A DNA stretch of 64,000 nt from Alphaproteobacteria bacterium. GTDB taxonomy: Bacteria > Pseudomonadota > Alphaproteobacteria > Micavibrionales > Micavibrionaceae. Made by a program: the position numbers and the translations under genes. Under the pieces are notes generated by a model. That model was not told where the DNA came from. It saw nothing but the letters and a program-made list of their open reading frames with translations, and did not search any database. Location: positions 62,001 through 126,000 of the forward strand of contig NZDE01000010.1 in the NCBI GenBank assembly GCA_002690045.1. Reading direction: 5' to 3'. Of this stretch, positions 25,838 through 62,340 are shown one piece after another (positions within the stretch are counted from its first letter, which is position 1; every line of letters begins with the position of its first letter).

Positions 25838-27259
25838 ATGAGCAATGCGAACAGCAATGTCGTCACTATGGGCGCATCTTTTCAACAAGCTGATTCATTT
25901 GAGCCTACACCGGAAATCTTAAAAGCATGGACGGCTGTATATAAAGAGCTTCGTAATGAGTTTGGTGAAGCGGTGTACCGTAGCTGGTTGAAACCTTTGA
26001 GTTTGCAGGCGTATTACCATGGTACTTTAGAAGTTTCTGTCCCTACACGTTTTATGCGTGATTGGATTCAATCGCACTACGCTGCGCGCATTTTAGAAAT
26101 GAGCATGGAAAAGAACGCTGAAATTAAGCGTTTGGAAATCGTGGTTGTTCAAAATTCTGTGCCATTAGACGAAGAAGATGAAGAGATTCTTGCGCGTCCA
26201 AAAGCGAACATCAACGAACTGACAGCGGATTATGATTTGTCGTCTCCACTTGATCCGCGTTTCACGTTCGATAATTTTGTCGTTGGTAAAACAAACGCAT
26301 TGGCACATGCTGCGGCGCGCCGCGTTGTTGAGTGTGACAAGGTTCCATTTAACCCATTATATATCTATGGCGGAGTTGGCATTGGTAAAACACACCTTAT
26401 GCACGCTATTGCGCACCAAATTCGTCAGCAAGACCCTGAAAAAGTGGTTATGTATCTTTCAGCTGAAAAGTTTATGTACCAATTCGTGCGTGCGCTTCGT
26501 GGCCAAGACACAATGAAGTTTAAAGAAATCTTCCGCTCAGTTGACGTGTTGATGATGGATGACATCCAGTTCATCGCGGGTAAAGAAAGCACACAGGAAG
26601 AATTTTTCCACACATTCAACGCCTTGGTTGACTATAACAAGCAGATCATCATTTCTGCCGACAAAGCGCCAAGCGAAATGAATGGTATTGATGAGCGCCT
26701 ACGTTCACGTTTGGCATGGGGCTTGGTTGCCGATATTCAGCAGTCATCTTATGACTTGCGCTTAGACATTCTGCATTCAAAGCGCGCGCTTCTTCAGGCA
26801 GATATCCCTGATAGCGTTCTTGAGTTCCTTGCGCTTAAAGTGACAAGCAATATTCGTGAACTTGAAGGTGCGTTGAACCGTATCGTTGCGCATGCTGATG
26901 TATCTAAAAACCCAGTGACGCTTGAAAGCACACAGGATATTTTGCAAGATATGCTCCGCAGCCATGATCGCCGTATTACAATTGATGAAATTCAGCGTAA
27001 AGTTGCGGAACACTACAACATTAAGCTGACAGATATGCATTCTTCACGTCGTGCTCGCAGTGTTGCGCGCCCACGTCAGATTGCGATGTATTTGGCAAAA
27101 CAGCTTACTGCGCGTTCATTGCCTGAAATAGGCCGTAAGTTTGGTGGCCGTGACCATACAACCGTTATGCACGCCGTTCGTAAAATCGAAGAGCTTATGG
27201 ATGAAGATGCAGGTTTCGCACAAGACGTAGAAGTTGTACGTCGCGCCCTTACAGGTTGA
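25838..27259 (+). CDS. dnaA: Chromosomal replication initiator protein DnaA
   Basis: A 473-residue initiator. Residues about 25-95 form domain I, then there is a short linker. The AAA+ domain has Walker A GGVGIGKTHL, Walker B VLMMDDIQFIAGK and the initiator-specific helix. The C-terminal DNA-binding domain carries the DnaA signature GRKFGGRDHTTVMHAVRKIE. It binds DnaA boxes and opens the origin. The linker (domain II) is short. It starts at ATG 25838 after TATGGAGA. The GNAT gene begins six bases after the dnaA stop codon. Confidence 0.98.
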   Translation: MSNANSNVVTMGASFQQADSFEPTPEILKAWTAVYKELRNEFGEAVYRSWLKPLSLQAYYHGTLEVSVPTRFMRDWIQSHYAARILEMSMEKNAEIKRLEIVVVQNSVPLDEEDEEILARPKANINELTADYDLSSPLDPRFTFDNFVVGKTNALAHAAARRVVECDKVPFNPLYIYGGVGIGKTHLMHAIAHQIRQQDPEKVVMYLSAEKFMYQFVRALRGQDTMKFKEIFRSVDVLMMDDIQFIAGKESTQEEFFHTFNALVDYNKQIIISADKAPSEMNGIDERLRSRLAWGLVADIQQSSYDLRLDILHSKRALLQADIPDSVLEFLALKVTSNIRELEGALNRIVAHADVSKNPVTLESTQDILQDMLRSHDRRITIDEIQRKVAEHYNIKLTDMHSSRRARSVARPRQIAMYLAKQLTARSLPEIGRKFGGRDHTTVMHAVRKIEELMDEDAGFAQDVEVVRRALTG

Positions 27260-48269: not shown

Positions 48270-49241
48270 ATGACAACAGATTTAAAAGCAGTATATACAT
48301 GGTGGCGCAATGAAGGGCAAGCTTTGGGTGCGGAGCGTAAAGACTTAGCGCTACAACGTTCGGCGCTACAAGCCGACTTGGATGCGCTGAATGATGAGAA
48401 GGCGGGCTATAACCCTTTTAAGTTCTTGAAAAACGCATGGCGCCGCGCGACGGAAGGCAGTAATCTTCAAGGGCAAATTAATGTTCTTAACGACAAGCAA
48501 GCAGATTTAGAGGCTAGCTTGCGTAATAAAGCTGATGCGCAGGCCGTAGAATTATTTTATGCATATTTGCAATCTAGCGCGGCTGATGCAGCGACCGTGT
48601 CTGCATATAATGATAATACAGCGGCCTTTGATGCGGCGAATAAAACTTATGCGGCATTAGAAAAAATTAATTCCAAAACAAATGACGTTTTACGCAAAGT
48701 TGATCGTGCGCGGTATGAGTGTGATGATGCGCAAGATTATGAAACTATGGATATGATCGGCAGTAACCCTGTCGTCTCTATAATTTCACATGGTGAAACG
48801 GAGGAGGCGGCAGAGTATCTTGCGGATGCTGTTGAAGCGATTAAGGATTATTCTGAATATATGGAGAAAGTCAAAGGCGAGCCATACATGGTTGAGGCGA
48901 ATATTGATATAGATGATATTCTTTCTACAGCAGAATGGGATTTATGGTTCGGTGTTTTTGACCTTGATGTGTTGAGTTTCTTTAGTAGCTGGCAAAATCA
49001 TACAAAGCTTGAAGAGGCTAAGACACAGTTAGAAGATGTAAAAGCACATATTGAGCCGATTAGTGAATCTTTATCTACGCGTATGAAGGCTAGCCGTGCG
49101 GAAAAATTATCTTATGAGGATAAAAATCGTGCGTTGTGTCGTGCTTATATTAATGGGCTAGAGCTGCCATCTGATATGCGGGCTTCATTGTCGCTTAATG
49201 TGCCTATATCCGGGGCGGTTGGCTCTGCACCGAGTATTTAA
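48270..49241 (+). CDS. Coiled-coil protein of unknown function (323 aa)
   Basis: A soluble, mostly helical protein. Residues about 15-60 and 65-110 look like two coiled-coil stretches (RKDLALQRSALQADLDALND and LQGQINVLNDKQADLEASLR). A Trp-rich acidic central block around residue 215-235 (STAEWDLWFGVFDLDVLSFF) precedes another coil (LEEAKTQLEDVKAHIEPI). No signal peptide is present. I recognise no family. It starts at ATG 48270 after GGAG and ends at a bidirectional terminator shared with rplI. Confidence 0.7.
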   Translation: MTTDLKAVYTWWRNEGQALGAERKDLALQRSALQADLDALNDEKAGYNPFKFLKNAWRRATEGSNLQGQINVLNDKQADLEASLRNKADAQAVELFYAYLQSSAADAATVSAYNDNTAAFDAANKTYAALEKINSKTNDVLRKVDRARYECDDAQDYETMDMIGSNPVVSIISHGETEEAAEYLADAVEAIKDYSEYMEKVKGEPYMVEANIDIDDILSTAEWDLWFGVFDLDVLSFFSSWQNHTKLEEAKTQLEDVKAHIEPISESLSTRMKASRAEKLSYEDKNRALCRAYINGLELPSDMRASLSLNVPISGAVGSAPSI

Positions 49242-53481: not shown

Positions 53482-54495
53482 ATGAGCGAAACAGAAAATA
53501 CATATGGTGTGTTTACATTAGAACGACAAGATTTGGTCGATCTATCACACCGCATTGCTGCATGTATTCCAGCCGATTTCCTAAAAGATAAAGATAAGCC
53601 TGTCGTGATTGCTGTTGATGGCACGTGGCAATGTGGCAAGAAAATTGTCGCAGATTATGGCCGTGAAGCCCTGTTGGGCGTAAAGCATGAGGATGTGCGT
53701 TTTCCTATGAGGGGTGAGACTGAAGTGGTGCCTAATGACAGCCTTACAATGGCGCAGTCATTTGTAAACGCCGTTAAAAATTTGTTTGGTAGACGCGAAC
53801 AGAAAGATAAGTGGATTACACGGCCGTTAAAAAAGCGCCTTGCAAATAGTCGTGGGGTAGATATGACATGCCGCGGTATTTCTGAATATGATGAATATGT
53901 TGCCGCAGACGTGAATGGGGCGCTTTTGGACGTCTCATTTATTAATATAGCTTGGCGCGGAAATTTTAGTTTCCATGATGACATAGATGACTGGACGGAC
54001 GCATCTTTCTTCAAACATCATATGAATGAACGGCAGGCTGGTGGTGTGGTCTATGTGCATAACCTGAAACGTGACGTTGTTGAGCCTGACATAGAAATAA
54101 AGTTAGAGTCTAAATCTGGATATACATCACTGAACGGTGAAGAGCGTTCATGTAAGAATGTGCCACATGCTTTACAGGCGTCATTAGGCGAAGATGGCGC
54201 GGATATTTTTGCAGAATGGGCGCGCTTTGTAATGGTTAAATTTAATAACACGGCATTAGAAACGCGCGCGAATATGGCTAAGATGCTGAAAGATGAATTT
54301 GGTTTCTGTGCGCTTGAGCAAATTTCACAAGAGTTACTCGCAATCCCTGTTGAAGATGACTCTGATAGCGAGCTGATGCAAATTAAAGTGGACCAAGCTG
54401 ATTTTCCTTTGGCGAAAAAGCATAAACATCATTTGGCGGCATGTAACAATAATCCCACAGCTTTGGTTAAAACTGCTGCGCCTTGTCCTTGCTAG
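53482..54495 (+). CDS. TsaE-like P-loop paralogue 1, variant Walker A
   Basis: A 337-residue protein and the largest of four tandem relatives. Conserved blocks: YGVFTLERQDLVDLSHRIA; the P-loop-like GTWQCGKK (residues 47-54); EYDEYV then VSFINIAWRGNFSF; GGVVYVHN; EPDIEIKLES; and WARFVMVKFNN. In ordinary P-loop ATPases GxxxxGK is followed by S or T; here it is Lys. The order helix, P-loop, aromatic strand, GGV-VHN strand and PDIEI strand resembles TsaE (where the blocks are GDLGAGKTT, HFDLYR, EWP and PDVEI). The FDLYR-like block reads FINIAWR, and EW reads HN. It has a unique insert (residues about 75-125) and a Cys-containing C-terminus ending PCPC. The function is not known; the TsaE link is my inference. 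Confidence 0.7.
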   Translation: MSETENTYGVFTLERQDLVDLSHRIAACIPADFLKDKDKPVVIAVDGTWQCGKKIVADYGREALLGVKHEDVRFPMRGETEVVPNDSLTMAQSFVNAVKNLFGRREQKDKWITRPLKKRLANSRGVDMTCRGISEYDEYVAADVNGALLDVSFINIAWRGNFSFHDDIDDWTDASFFKHHMNERQAGGVVYVHNLKRDVVEPDIEIKLESKSGYTSLNGEERSCKNVPHALQASLGEDGADIFAEWARFVMVKFNNTALETRANMAKMLKDEFGFCALEQISQELLAIPVEDDSDSELMQIKVDQADFPLAKKHKHHLAACNNNPTALVKTAAPCPC

Positions 54496-54597
54496 ACATG
54501 CGGCTTGGCAATGGTTTTAACCTATTTCCTTGCAAAATCTATGATTTATATGTAAAATGCTTGTTTTTTAGTCCCTATACGTGAAAGTGGTTATAAG

Positions 54598-55536
54598 ATG
54601 GGCGAAACATATGGTGCATTTACATTAGAACGAGACGACCTTGTCGCGCTCGCGCAGCGTATTGTTTTATCTGTGCCGAATGACTTTCTCTATGATAAAG
54701 AAAATCCGCTTATCATATCCGTTGATGGAACGTTTAAAGGCGGTAAAAAAATTATACCGGATTCTGGGTATGAAGCCGCATTTAACATTCAAAGAGAAGA
54801 TTTAAGTTTTGCGCAAGGCGAAATTCATGATGGAACGGATTGGAAGCGCAGCTTTTCCGAAGCGGGTAAAGATTTGAACGTTATATATCGCGGGCGTGGA
54901 GAATATGATGAATATGTGATTGGTCGTAAGGCTGGGCGCGATGTCGAGCTTTCATTTGTGAATGTCGCTTGGGGGCAGGGGTTTAGTTTTAAGGCTGCTC
55001 CAACTGAGTGCGAGCGCCTAGCACAGCATTTAGGGCTACGCCAGAAAGGCGGCATTGTTTTTGTGCATAATGCAGAACGTGAATATATTGCGCCTGACAT
55101 AAACATCAGAATTGAATCTGATTATGGTGACCGCCATGTGAATGGTGAAAACCGTGTGTGCCCAGATGTGGTTCGTATTTTGGGAAAAGGGCTTGGCACT
55201 AAACAGGCTTATGATCAATATGACTGGGCGCGCTATGTTGAAGTGTCCTGCCATAATGAAGCGTTAGATCGTGCGGCCAGTATATCTAAAATGTTGACGG
55301 ATGAGTTTGGCTTTACGGCAAAATCCCAAATGCCAAAAGGTTTGTTTGATTTAGGTGGTGGTACGGTTCGCTGTGCGGAAGATGTGTTAACATTTCCTCT
55401 GCTTGATAAATATCGTGCTCATTTGCGCGCCTATGCGGATGTAGTAAAAACGCAGCGGCCAGGGGAGCCATCATGTTACGAAATTAAGATTGATATGCCT
55501 GTTTCTGGGTGTTTAAAGGGGCTGAATCATGGATAA
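54598..55536 (+). CDS. TsaE-like P-loop paralogue 2, variant Walker A
   Basis: A 312-residue paralogue of the preceding gene. It carries GTFKGGKK (residues 44-51), EYDEYVIG, LSFVNVAWGQGFSF, GGIVFVHN, APDINIRIES and WARYVEVSCHN. The C-terminal FPLLDKYRAHLRAY matches FPLAKKHKHHLAAC in paralogue 1. It starts at ATG 54598, 102 bases after paralogue 1, and overlaps paralogue 3 by eight bases. It has no signal peptide. It is likely in the same transcript as the next two genes. Confidence 0.7.
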   Translation: MGETYGAFTLERDDLVALAQRIVLSVPNDFLYDKENPLIISVDGTFKGGKKIIPDSGYEAAFNIQREDLSFAQGEIHDGTDWKRSFSEAGKDLNVIYRGRGEYDEYVIGRKAGRDVELSFVNVAWGQGFSFKAAPTECERLAQHLGLRQKGGIVFVHNAEREYIAPDINIRIESDYGDRHVNGENRVCPDVVRILGKGLGTKQAYDQYDWARYVEVSCHNEALDRAASISKMLTDEFGFTAKSQMPKGLFDLGGGTVRCAEDVLTFPLLDKYRAHLRAYADVVKTQRPGEPSCYEIKIDMPVSGCLKGLNHG

Positions 55537-56275
55537 AGCGCCAGACATTAACGGCTATACGCTGCGCCGTTCAGATATTGTACAGCTTGCCCGTAATATT
55601 GCGCGCGCCGTGCCGCTTGAGATTCTTTCCGATAAAGCGCACCCGCTGACTATCGCGATTAAGGGGTCGTATAGTTGTGGGAAGAAATGTTTCGTTGATT
55701 CTTTTATAGAAGCCGCGATTAATCTGCCGCCATGCCCTATAGAGGGTGTAGGAGGGTGGAGGCCTGAAAAGAAAGAAGACTATCGCGCTTATCTTGCTAT
55801 GCGTTATCGCCGTGATTACTCATTTCAAGGTAATGAAGGTAAAGATGAGAGCGTTATTGCACGTGGCCTAAATGGGCAAATGATGCAGTTCTTATACCTC
55901 GACATGAATTATACGCCATATCATTTTTCGTTTTGTGCGCAGACAAATAATGAGTCCTCTACTGTTGCTGTACGTGAGTTTAATGCCTTGCGCAAATATG
56001 GTGGGGTAACGTTGCTGCAGAATACGGATGGCCCGCATGATGAAGAAGAGTTTCCTTCTGATATAGAAATATGGCTAGAAAATAAACGTGCAAATTTCAG
56101 TGGTGCGGAATTGCGTTGCCCCGATAAATCGAAATTAGCAGGAGCTTTTAATGATGAGGCCAAAAATGGCGACTGGCGGCGTTATGTTGAAGTGCGTGTA
56201 CATAACCCAGATTTGTCGTTGGTTGTTGATGCGTGTAAGCCCGTGTTTAAAGAATTTAAAATGGGCGATATATAG
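55529..56275 (+). CDS. TsaE-like P-loop paralogue 3, short form
   Basis: A 248-residue paralogue with GSYSCGKK (residues 46-53), a block FLYLDMNYTPYHFSF where an Asp is retained, GGVTLLQN, PSDIEIWLEN and WRRYVEVRVHN. It lacks the C-terminal extension seen in paralogues 1 and 2. It overlaps paralogue 2 by eight bases, and its TAG is directly followed by the ATG of paralogue 4. Confidence 0.7.
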   Translation: MDKAPDINGYTLRRSDIVQLARNIARAVPLEILSDKAHPLTIAIKGSYSCGKKCFVDSFIEAAINLPPCPIEGVGGWRPEKKEDYRAYLAMRYRRDYSFQGNEGKDESVIARGLNGQMMQFLYLDMNYTPYHFSFCAQTNNESSTVAVREFNALRKYGGVTLLQNTDGPHDEEEFPSDIEIWLENKRANFSGAELRCPDKSKLAGAFNDEAKNGDWRRYVEVRVHNPDLSLVVDACKPVFKEFKMGDI

Positions 56276-57097
56276 ATGACAACGTACTGTGTGTTTACGA
56301 TTAGCCGAGATGATTTGATTGCACTTTCACGTGGGATAGCACGCGCCGTGCCGCATAACTTTTTGATGCATAAAGACCGTCCTGTTAAAATCGGCGTTTC
56401 GGGCACTATACGTAGTGGTAAGAAAATTGTGGCTGATTATGGTCGTGCTGAAATTCTTGGCGTGGCTGGGGATACAAAAGATCTAGCGTTTGCAAAACAC
56501 AAGAAAGTCAAAAGTGAGGATGATTTGCGCGATATTTTTGTTGCGCATGGCTATGATGCTGCGGGGCTACCTGAGCATGATGAATTTGTGTGCGGCCTTC
56601 ATAAGGGCGATGTTGTTGAGGTTAGTTTTATGAATATGTCTTGGCGCTGTGGGTATAGTTTTTCTTATTATAAGAACGCTAATAGTCATGTTTATAATGA
56701 TCATGAACGTGTGCCCGCTTTATATGATGGTTATCTCGCGCATCGGGATTACGGCGGCATAGCGTATATTCACAATGCTGCGGAAATGGGGATTGATTTT
56801 GATGTTGAGGTTGATGTCAATGATGATGTCATTTCTCAAAATCAAGGTGATGATTTATGCTTTATTCCAGATTTGTTGTGGTGTTTTAATCAACGCGCAG
56901 GTTGGGATAAAAATTGGCTGCGCTATGTTGAAGTGCGTATTCCTAATGAAATTCTTGCGCAGCAAAGCGGGCTAAATGATAAGCTCAAAGCGATGGGCTT
57001 TATGAGTAAGGACGATCTGCCTAACGAGATATTTCTATCTGATGATCAAGTCTATGATATGTCTAGTTTGCCCAATATCCCTTTGCTTAAGCGTTAA
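56276..57097 (+). CDS. TsaE-like P-loop paralogue 4, variant Walker A
   Basis: A 273-residue paralogue with GTIRSGKK (residues 43-50), EHDEFVCG, VSFMNMSWRCGYSF, GGIAYIHN, FDVEVDVND and WLRYVEVRIPN. The FLM-K and IPLLKR ends match paralogues 1 and 2 at reduced length. Its stop overlaps the convergent D,D-carboxypeptidase gene by four bases. It completes a four-gene array of one family. Confidence 0.7.
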   Translation: MTTYCVFTISRDDLIALSRGIARAVPHNFLMHKDRPVKIGVSGTIRSGKKIVADYGRAEILGVAGDTKDLAFAKHKKVKSEDDLRDIFVAHGYDAAGLPEHDEFVCGLHKGDVVEVSFMNMSWRCGYSFSYYKNANSHVYNDHERVPALYDGYLAHRDYGGIAYIHNAAEMGIDFDVEVDVNDDVISQNQGDDLCFIPDLLWCFNQRAGWDKNWLRYVEVRIPNEILAQQSGLNDKLKAMGFMSKDDLPNEIFLSDDQVYDMSSLPNIPLLKR

Positions 57098-58044
57098 GCA
57101 TTAGGCGTAGGGCAGGTTTCATAAAACTTTCTATGTGTTGCGCTGGGCGCGGCGTCATTTTTTAGGTCATTGAATGCTGCGTTAAAATGGTCGGCCATAT
57201 GTACAAATGAATCTCTGCGCCAATATGTGCCAAGAGACACGCCAATAAGCTGCCACTCTCCCATGCGGGCGGTGGCGACTAAATTGTTGCGGGATGCATT
57301 TAAGTAACCGGTTTTCTGCCCTTCGGCATGGTCATAAAAATCCGTGAACAGGCCGTTTCCTTGATGGGTTTTTCCGTTATGCTCATAATCAGTAGCGCTG
57401 AAATAATTGCTATATAGGGATGGATGTGCGCCCATGATTTTTGTCATCATAATGGCCATGTCGCACGCCGTGGATGTTGAATAGGCGCGCGGCTTGTAAC
57501 GCGATGGCCTTTTTGCAAAGCCAGAAGCATCGGCAAATATTGTTTTATGCATCCCCCAAGATTTGGCTGTTTCGTTCATGCGTTTTACAAAGGCGTCATG
57601 ACTGCCAGATACATGTTCTGCAATGGCATAAGATACATCCCCTGCCGATTTCGCGATGATTGCACGTGCCGCTTGGTCGTAAGTTAATACATCGCCAGCT
57701 TTCGCATGGAGGAGCGAGGCGCTATAGCCCTTTAAGTAACGAACCGCTTTGTCGCTAATCACAAGCGTGGCATCCATATTTTCATCATTATTACGCATAT
57801 GATCGAATAATAAATGCAATGTCATGGCTTTGTTTAATGATGCGGTAATCCAGATTTTTTTAGGATTATTGTGGCTATATACAGTTTGTGTGTATGGATC
57901 CATAACCATAAAGGCTTTTGGCGTAGATTCCCCGTGCTCTGGCCGTTTAGATGCGGCTTCAACTGGCGCGCTGAAGGCCATGGTTAATGAAAAAGCGGCC
58001 GCCCAAAAAGCTTGGGCTAATTTAGTTGATTTTTTTGTATGCAT
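57094..58044 (-). CDS. D-alanyl-D-alanine carboxypeptidase (S11, DacF/DacA-like)
   Basis: A 316-residue protein with a signal peptide (about residues 1-30). The active-site SxxK is TASLNKAMT (Ser69, Lys72), and the KTG motif is GQKTGYLNASRNN. The middle motif, normally SxN, reads SAGD, so Asn is replaced by Gly. The mature protein is short and has no obvious C-terminal amphipathic anchor. S11 enzymes trim peptidoglycan stem peptides. The changed SxN motif may reduce or alter activity. Confidence 0.85.
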   Translation of the reverse strand: MHTKKSTKLAQAFWAAAFSLTMAFSAPVEAASKRPEHGESTPKAFMVMDPYTQTVYSHNNPKKIWITASLNKAMTLHLLFDHMRNNDENMDATLVISDKAVRYLKGYSASLLHAKAGDVLTYDQAARAIIAKSAGDVSYAIAEHVSGSHDAFVKRMNETAKSWGMHKTIFADASGFAKRPSRYKPRAYSTSTACDMAIMMTKIMGAHPSLYSNYFSATDYEHNGKTHQGNGLFTDFYDHAEGQKTGYLNASRNNLVATARMGEWQLIGVSLGTYWRRDSFVHMADHFNAAFNDLKNDAAPSATHRKFYETCPTPNA

Positions 58045-61279: not shown

Positions 61280-62340
61280 TCTGCGGATTTGTTTTCGCGT
61301 TTCAAAATATAATCATAAAAATCTTTATAGGCCTGCATAGTCTTTTCGACGGAGAATTCATTGATGTAGCGTTGATAACCATTTTTGACTAAATCTTGGC
61401 CAAGCGCTTTGTTGTCGCGAAGGAGCTTGAGGTTCTCTCGCAATGTGTCAACGTCATCAATATTGAAGGCAAGACAGTCTTCTTTATCACGGACAAATTG
61501 TTTCGGGCCATCGGCAAGACTGACGATTAATGGCGTTTTATTTGCCCAAGCCTGTACGAAGACAGTACCAAAGGGCTCGTACCGTGAAGGGAAGCAACAA
61601 ATATCTGCGGCGTTAAGTAAGGCTGCGCGGTCTTCACGCCAGCCGAGGAAATGGACGCGGTCTTCCATTCCGCATTCTTTAGCATAATTTTCAAGCTTTT
61701 CACGGTCTGGCCCGTCGCCAGCAAGCCAGAGATGGATTTTATCTAAATCTTTAGCTGCGGTGATTAATGTGTCAAGTGCCTTGGATTTATGCAGGCGGCT
61801 TAAGGTTAAGACGACCGTTGCGTCTTTGGGCGTGTTTAATGTGCTGCGGTCAATTTTTTGGAAATGATCTTCAGTTTCAGCGAAGTTATTAATGTGCTGA
61901 ATAGTATCAGGGTTTACGCCCTCATCTGTTAGAAAGCGCCCAATATCAGGCGTGATGGTCATGAAATAATCGGTTTCGGTATAGTATTTTAGTTTGTAAT
62001 ACCCACCTAGGCGGCTGACAACGTGATAATCTTTGTCGTCCGGCGCGGATGGGATTTTATCTGCGGCGCGGGACATCCATGTCTGGACGATTTTTGGTTT
62101 TGACTTCTTGATGATTTGCCCTATGCGCCATGGCGTAAATTTATCAACTTTTCCGCCAAAGGGAAGCGTATGTGTTTTGATGCCCGCTTTTTTTAGGCGC
62201 GGAACGCGAATTTTATTGGGGCGCGTGATGACCTCAACATCAAAGCCATGTTTCGACAGGGCAATACATGTGTCAACAAAGGCGGTCTCTGCACCGCCTG
62301 TTTCTGCTCCTGCTAAAACTTGGATAGTTTTTAAAGTCAT
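61276..62340 (-). CDS. Glycosyltransferase, GT4 family
   Basis: A 354-residue GT-B transferase. The N-terminal glycine loop is LAGAETGGAETAFVDTC, and the C-terminal domain has LTLSRLHKSKALDTLI, LAGDGPDREKLENY and CFPSRYEPFGTVFVQAW. The second Glu of the EX7E donor motif is Gln (EPFGTVFVQ). The acceptor is unknown. It is four bases after the gene at 62345, in a three-gene unit headed by the RNase D-like gene. Confidence 0.85.
   Translation of the reverse strand: MTLKTIQVLAGAETGGAETAFVDTCIALSKHGFDVEVITRPNKIRVPRLKKAGIKTHTLPFGGKVDKFTPWRIGQIIKKSKPKIVQTWMSRAADKIPSAPDDKDYHVVSRLGGYYKLKYYTETDYFMTITPDIGRFLTDEGVNPDTIQHINNFAETEDHFQKIDRSTLNTPKDATVVLTLSRLHKSKALDTLITAAKDLDKIHLWLAGDGPDREKLENYAKECGMEDRVHFLGWREDRAALLNAADICCFPSRYEPFGTVFVQAWANKTPLIVSLADGPKQFVRDKEDCLAFNIDDVDTLRENLKLLRDNKALGQDLVKNGYQRYINEFSVEKTMQAYKDFYDYILKRENKSAD

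Follow-up and report, generated by a model that had tools for sequence, protein, structure and literature searches.

In P-loop enzymes, the Ser or Thr at the end of the Walker A motif helps to hold Mg2+. Two kinds of P-loop protein, the uridine kinases and TsaE, an ATPase of tRNA N6-threonylcarbamoyladenosine (t6A) synthesis, come closest to the proteins that we analyse here. For E. coli TsaE, the substitutions T43A, E108A, Y82A and W109A are tabulated as having lost ATPase activity (PMC4330362, Table 3). T43A and E108A are also listed as disabling ADP and ATP binding, and t6A activity is given as affected for E108A and not affected for W109A, with T43A and Y82A untested (PMC4330362). Our subject is an array of four same-strand genes at 53482-57097 (+) of a window of 64,000 nucleotides (positions 62,001 to 126,000 of contig NZDE01000010.1, assembly GCA_002690045.1) from an alphaproteobacterium of the order Micavibrionales. 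The original prediction, made from the letters of the window alone, saw in these genes a lineage-specific family derived from TsaE with changed hydrolysis motifs. Judged by its motifs and profiles, the array belongs to an undescribed P-loop family of a predicted nucleotide-binding type, in which one branch carries a fixed Lys in place of the Walker A Ser or Thr. The ancestry of the family may lie with either TsaE or the kinases.

Results

A P-loop family with a fixed Lys

The family set consists of 42 hand-gathered members, partly chosen by the GxxxxGK motif. All 42, with that selection in mind, have GxxxxGK after a hydrophobic strand, a trait of the P-loop NTPase superfamily. The residue that follows GK is Ser in 21 members, Lys in 20 and Glu in one. 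Four residues past this position stands an Asp or Glu in 38 of 42, and an Asp in each of the 20 members with GKK. Further conserved positions are Asn155 (Asn or Asp in 36 of 42), Asn194 (38 of 42) and Arg248 (39 of 41). Within the GKK rows, Lys54, Asp58, Glu138 and Asn194 are each found 20 times out of 20, at a median pairwise identity of 26.5% (range 18-87%). Because it is kept at such a divergence, the Lys is maintained and not a sign of decay.

The members with GKS matter for the original prediction, which counted canonical-Ser homologues without similarity to TsaE against itself. Homologues with the canonical Ser do exist, in 21 of 42 members; this is one half of that pair of observations. 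On the tree of the family, which lacks a resolved backbone, the distribution of GKK and GKS needs at least three changes; a single origin may nevertheless hold.

Kept outside the set were a near-copy (L052), fragments in G139 and G067, a truncated member in G087, second copies in G001, G032, G037 and G140, and weaker matches from the order (G007, G047 and others). Searches of Pfam, NCBIfam, PHROGs and PADLOC gave no convincing match to the family. The AAA+ protein Torsin, which has GKN in its Walker A motif, was set aside: PF06309 matched weakly in two of 36 members (best E 6.8e-5), and the four window proteins had no match to it at E 10.

The array consists of four paralogues

Each of the four genes begins with ATG. 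Two further genomes of the order, G001 and G002, carry counterparts. The genes and their motifs are:

53482..54495 (+): gene 1, 337 amino acids, paralogue with a GKK P-loop, an insertion behind the P-loop helix and an extended C-terminal tail; G001 and G002 have orthologues
53620..53643 (+): gene 1, Walker A-like motif GTWQCGKK, residues 47-54
54598..55536 (+): gene 2, 312 amino acids, GKK paralogue; the G001 copy is apparently split over two contigs, and the G002 array lacks the gene
54727..54750 (+): gene 2, Walker A-like motif GTFKGGKK
55529..56275 (+): gene 3, 248 amino acids, GKK paralogue with an 8-base overlap with gene 2
55664..55687 (+): gene 3, Walker A-like motif GSYSCGKK
56276..57097 (+): gene 4, 273 amino acids, GKK paralogue, its ATG immediately after the stop of gene 3
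56402..56425 (+): gene 4, Walker A-like motif GTIRSGKK

GxxxxGKK is confirmed in all four translations. The four proteins are paralogues: used as query, gene 4 finds genes 2, 1 and 3 with E values of 2e-30, 3e-16 and 6e-11, respectively. Genes 2, 3 and 4 are 44, 27 and 32% identical to gene 1, and 36 columns are invariant in the four-way alignment. The original prediction also described a series of blocks common to all four genes, and tight junctions between them. The observation holds, with deviations from the blocks in two genes. Gene 3 has LYLDMNY at the position of SF(I/V/M)N-x-(A/S)W in genes 1, 2 and 4, and the PDIxI block is replaced by SDIEI in gene 3 and by FDVEV in gene 4. Tight junctions were found for genes 2/3 (overlap) and genes 3/4 (stop/start abutment), two of the three; 102 bases separate gene 1 from gene 2. 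Counts of promoter-like sites (10 against 9.8 expected) and terminator-like sites (6 against 4.2, standard deviation 1.9) were uninformative.

Conserved order and fast divergence

A contig scan for relatives returned four loci in three assemblies, namely Micavibrio sp. UBA2705, the nearest named relative, and two metagenome-assembled genomes titled Alphaproteobacteria bacterium. The array is common to three species of one order. In G001 all four genes are present and their order is unchanged, although they are apparently spread over two contigs; G002 has genes 1, 3 and 4. In a maximum-likelihood tree of the 42 members, calculated without the Lys/Ser column, every gene of the array clusters with its own counterparts; support is starred for genes 1, 3 and 4 and 94/82 for gene 2, in a tree whose bootstrap has not settled. 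The duplications are therefore older than the split of the species.

The array is fast-diverging, yet under purifying selection. By blastp, identity to G001 is 54% for gene 1, 51% for gene 3 and 53% for gene 4, and identity to G002 is 48, 50 and 36%, respectively; gene 2 and its incomplete G001 counterpart share 46%. Neighbouring proteins are 66-98% identical in 21 of 24 comparisons; the other three stand at 45.5% (the open reading frame at 48270-49241), 56.6% and 58.8%. Between species fabD is 82-94% and fabG 98% identical, against 36-54% for the array. The ratio of nonsynonymous to synonymous substitutions (dN/dS) against G001 is 0.15 for gene 1 and 0.27 for genes 2 and 4, rough values at dS of at least 1.4; it is saturated for gene 3, and for gene 1 against G002.

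These data bear on the idea that the four genes are in decay or are not real coding sequence. No convincing database family and, by eye, a weak ribosome-binding context would fit it. Order is kept in three species, the genes form orthologous groups, dN/dS lies well below 1 and residues are fixed. The idea is already contradicted by this conservation, and we give it next to no credence.

On its 5' side the array adjoins a divergent fabD-type gene. Gene 4 ends in a 4-base overlap with a converging open reading frame of D-alanyl-D-alanine carboxypeptidase type (57094-58044). A separate observation concerns the open reading frame at 48270-49241 (+), which encodes 323 amino acids and has no Pfam match. 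It diverges from its G001 counterpart as fast as the array does, and no match to it was found among the open reading frames of the corresponding stretch of G002.

Other copies in the genome, and a separate TsaE

The window's genome measures 2.88 Mb in 23 contigs and is 98.85% complete and 3.55% contaminated. It holds a fifth GKK copy at C13:233.6-234.3 kb (dN/dS 0.066, likewise a rough value) and a distant GKS homologue at C13:414 kb. The original prediction had raised the question whether normal tsaE, tsaD and tsaB genes lie elsewhere in the genome. Canonical TsaE, intact and 144 amino acids long, is at C12:170.9 kb (PF02367, 122.6 bits), and TsaD is at C12:362 kb, both away from the array. 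A second, partial PF00814 match at C11:147.6 kb is probably TsaB.

Two other features of this genome were noticed. Its GKS homologue lies 3.3 kb from hsdM- and hsdS-type genes of a type I restriction-modification system (L274:6873-15361). There are also two full-length dnaA genes, one in the window at 25838-27259 (+), ahead of genes of dnaN type (28392) and recF type (29563), and one at about 2403 of contig C8 (L181), 74% identical over 474 amino acids. The two copies may reflect a genuine duplication or a contaminating contig.

Distribution and addresses

Of 142 genomes of the order, 37 have a match to a 36-row family profile at E <= 0.001 and 32 at E <= 1e-5; the five matches between these limits are doubtful. 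Evenly drawn samples of the class and the phylum gave 7 matches in 385 genomes and 24 in 398. The class matches run along the length only in the window's genome and in G036, of the same taxonomic family, and those of the phylum, apart from the window's genome, cover mainly the P-loop. Matches outside the order in the phylum draw have a uridine-kinase-type P-loop in 18 of 24 cases; three longer ones (L212, L214, L217) look, by eye, like uridine kinases. Hence the original prediction of a lineage-specific family holds within the samples searched: the family is recognised in one alphaproteobacterial order only.

Members stand at varied addresses. Four genomes (loci L264, L265, L272 and L273) have their single GKS gene flanked by trigger-factor and clpP genes and oriented against them; this common address, checked with Pfam in L264 and by eye in the other three, differs from that of the array. 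Single members are near fliI-type genes in two genomes. Tandem pairs occur elsewhere too, a GKK pair in G015 and a GKS pair in G086. The G015 pair has a sensor histidine kinase on one side and rapZ on the other (L107:5850-10610), a kind of place where alphaproteobacteria often have hprK. The separate pair in G086 is near flhF- and ParA-type genes (L275:6663-8105).

Such a pattern could also be expected of an accessory set for conflict (defence, predation or competition), engaged in an arms race, with the P-loop protein as its sensor part. Fast divergence, presence in only 32 of the 142 genomes, the variety of addresses (trigger-factor/clpP, fliI/flhF-type, sensor kinase/rapZ), the two tandem pairs and the GKS homologue near restriction-modification genes speak for this. 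PADLOC matches are weak, however (DndD in 2 of 30 members, best 0.0022; QatA in three members, 0.036), and the neighbours of the array look like housekeeping genes. The fifth copy evolves slowly, and the single-copy open reading frame at 48270-49241 keeps pace with the array in divergence. We judge a conflict set to be quite unlikely. Relatives of the family were found neither in viral contigs nor, with single-protein searches, in phages (gene 4) or plasmids (gene 1), and an origin from a virus or plasmid was set aside.

Profile comparisons with TsaE and kinases

Family profiles were compared with TsaE, CoaE, phosphoribulokinase (PRK) and DnaA by local and global hhalign. The comparison profiles kept 28, 30, 29 and 26 of 30 rows, respectively; rows were dropped for length, truncated flanks or stops, the sets were drawn from overlapping phylum genomes, and the PRK set is mainly of the phosphoribulokinase type. 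In shuffled controls, columns outside the retained P-loop core were permuted. The uridine kinases came in two sets, of 7 and 18 sequences, selected because they match the family profile; this biases their scores upwards.

The similarity to P-loop profiles goes beyond chance. Globally, the 42-member profile scores 42.5 with TsaE (reached by 0 of 60 shuffles), and 44-48 with uridine kinase (0 of 40). The same profile reaches 21.4 with CoaE, 22.3 with PRK and 3.4 with DnaA, values attained by 22, 2 and 13 of 60 shuffles. DnaA, an AAA+ protein, scores lowest in comparisons with full-family profiles. With four query profiles, core-kept shuffles (of 60 each) reached the real TsaE score 0, 1, 0 and 0 times. 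The corresponding counts are 5, 5, 1 and 5 for CoaE, 59, 58, 15 and 54 for PRK, and 14, 60, 6 and 46 for DnaA.

A family derived from TsaE, with its hydrolysis motifs replaced, would fit part of this. TsaE outscores CoaE, PRK and DnaA globally, and only 1 of 240 shuffles over the four profiles attains its score. Its N-terminal block aligns: when the N-terminal side alone is shuffled, 0 of 60 reach the real score. But CoaE, PRK and the uridine kinases are short before the P-loop and cannot compete on that block, and the C-terminal side adds little, with 2 of 60 shuffles reaching the score globally and 60 of 60 locally. The local E value against TsaE after the P-loop is about 0.09. Local scores put CoaE ahead of TsaE in 4 of 4 query profiles and PRK in three.

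The motifs of TsaE are absent as well. HFD-x-YR, whose H, D, Y and R are each found in 28 of 28 TsaE sequences, is missing; two residues after the aromatic-type position the family has Asn in 27 and Asp in 9 of 42 members. At the place of EWP, whose E and W are E108 and W109 in E. coli and stand in 28 of 28 TsaE sequences, the family has His in 17 members, Ser in 9, Gln in 8, Thr in 6 and Asn and Glu in one each, followed by Asn in 38 of 42. The change of motif stated in the original prediction thus stands: Lys replaces the Walker A Ser or Thr, and other residues align with HFD and EW. PF02367 at E 10 matched none of 36 members, in a search whose HMMER filters drop most matches above about 0.1. 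Neither gene 4 (at E 10) nor the family profile (at E 0.001) retrieved the genome's own TsaE. On the motifs and the missing PF02367 match, membership in TsaE was rejected.

Uridine kinase outscores TsaE in five of five query profiles, both globally and locally, with sets that were chosen by family match. The global scores are:

42-member profile: uridine kinase 48.3 and 44.3, TsaE 42.5
A5 profile: uridine kinase 49.6 and 49.0, TsaE 32.9
A6 profile: uridine kinase 42.7 and 41.3, TsaE 32.7
GKS subset: uridine kinase 47.8 and 50.4, TsaE 33.8
GKK subset: uridine kinase 28.2 and 24.3, TsaE 21.7

Derivation from TsaE, as the original prediction had it, is therefore not established, and the higher uridine-kinase scores lower the odds of both the TsaE reading and our best explanation. 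A TsaE origin is possible and, on these profiles, not favoured over a kinase origin; for the array as a TsaE-derived family we would call the case unlikely.

The kinase origin can be put as a claim about function: the proteins would be divergent kinases of uridine-kinase type that still phosphorylate a small molecule, the Lys being adapted to this task. Besides the higher scores, the order of columns outside the core matters. With both sides shuffled, the score of the 7-sequence set is reached by 0-1 of 40 shuffles globally and 0-2 locally; with only the C-terminal side shuffled, the score of the 42-member profile is reached by none of 40 shuffles in global mode and by 4 of 40 in local mode. 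As yardsticks, the global scores are 25 for TsaE with CoaE, 12-14 for TsaE with uridine kinase and 41-42 for CoaE with uridine kinase. The family's 44-48 thus resembles the score between two kinases. The uridine-kinase-type P-loops among the matches outside the order, three of them over much of the profile, fit too. So do weak matches to PDB sequences (best 0.0066, a uridine-cytidine kinase, in one search and 0.014 in another) and to NCBIfam, which are led by or include uridine kinases. Against this, scores are inflated by the choice of the sets, PF00485 is not among the families found for 36 members, and the kinases are without the N-terminal block. The global score of the GKK profile is low (24-28), and CoaE and PRK show little similarity that depends on column order, apart from the global 2 of 60 for PRK. 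We consider active kinases unlikely, if a little less so than a TsaE-derived family.

Discussion

To explain the array, we tentatively propose that its proteins are switches or scaffolds that bind a ligand without hydrolysing it and that have diversified in their partners. It is the explanation that we prefer, held with less than even confidence. What the data show is that the genes are paralogous, keep their order and a fixed motif, diverge fast under purifying selection and stand beside an intact TsaE encoded elsewhere; the fold, the ligand, the partners and the loss of catalysis are predictions. In the GKK branch, the Ser or Thr of the P-loop would have given way to an invariant Lys, which an equally invariant Asp follows at a distance of four residues. 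Binding of a nucleotide, or of some other ligand with a phosphate, has most likely been kept, and the ammonium group of the Lys may stand in for the metal. The bound ligand would then be neither hydrolysed nor transferred. The proteins could sense it and, in the role of switches or scaffolds, each act on a partner of its own, perhaps within hetero-oligomers. A more specific version, in which an ancient P-loop enzyme domain turned into metal-free, catalysis-dead sensors of a nucleotide or another phosphate, with a fixed Lys-Asp pair replacing Mg2+, and four co-transcribed, fast-diverging paralogues form a hetero-oligomeric switch, strikes us as rather unlikely.

Usual catalysis in the GKK branch appears doubtful under either ancestry. 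If the proteins are TsaE-like, the array would have Lys at the place of T43 and other residues at those of E108 and W109. If they are kinase-like, Lys would sit at the same Ser or Thr of the Walker A motif.

Several points weigh against the switch or scaffold explanation. Glu138, which lies between the P-loop and the strand that follows, is invariant among the GKK members; because it could serve catalysis, the loss of activity is something that we can only infer. The Lys itself could take a new catalytic part. Residue mapping to TsaE is uncertain because the ancestry is open; the HFD place is ambiguous by one residue, and nine of 42 members have an Asp two residues after the aromatic position.

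Proteins of this kind could also act in t6A synthesis, as hydrolysis-dead decoys or regulators that bind TsaD-TsaB. Some TsaE-like profile signal is present, and W109A of TsaE, which is without ATPase activity, is given as unaffected in t6A activity (PMC4330362). A Walker B mutant of TsaE reportedly still stimulates t6A catalysis (PMC9654439). But TsaE ancestry is not established and the motifs are absent, T43A and E108A, as listed, disable ADP/ATP binding (PMC4330362), and the array has no positional link to tsaB or tsaD. A role as decoys is very improbable.

The family offers a natural contrast within itself: GKS members against a GKK branch that has kept its Lys throughout a deep divergence. 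Side by side, the two would test the roles of the Walker A Ser or Thr, of the metal and of the Lys that replaces it. The array is also among the fastest-diverging genes of its neighbourhood, and the order includes predatory bacteria. For these two reasons, a possible role in interactions with other organisms deserves a test.

The original prediction knew of no description of such an array, and we found none in the literature on TsaE and TsaE-like proteins, on Micavibrio and Micavibrionales and on GxxxxGKK, among the matches listed. Compared with known systems, CoaE and phosphoribulokinase resemble the family in their similar scores around the Walker A motif; their local alignments cover only 24-34 and 24-42 columns, respectively. 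Uridine kinase has the highest profile score among the families compared, and for some profiles its alignment is collinear over 116-197 columns, with the P-loop and later strands. It differs in a GKS/T P-loop with a GASASGK-type signature and in a strand that ends in V-E-G, where the family, by eye, has x-(H/Q/S/T)-N. Its alignments begin at profile column 34-39, without the N-terminal block.

TsaE differs in having Ser or Thr (28 of 28) where the array has Lys at the end of Walker A, and the family is without SPT, HFDLYR and EWP. Family members are also longer (176-339 amino acids, one 459) than the genome's own TsaE, and multi-copy. The likeness to TsaE is collinear over 116-124 columns for profiles A5 and A6 and over just 48-55 for A2 and A3. 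For A5 and A6 it takes in an N-terminal helix, Walker A, strand ends at the places of HFD and EW and a D-I-x-I strand; with lax settings, an Arg that opens the last strand also aligns (28 of 28 in TsaE, 39 of 41 in the family). In profile terms, TsaE and uridine kinase would thus each lie as far from the family as a remote relative does.

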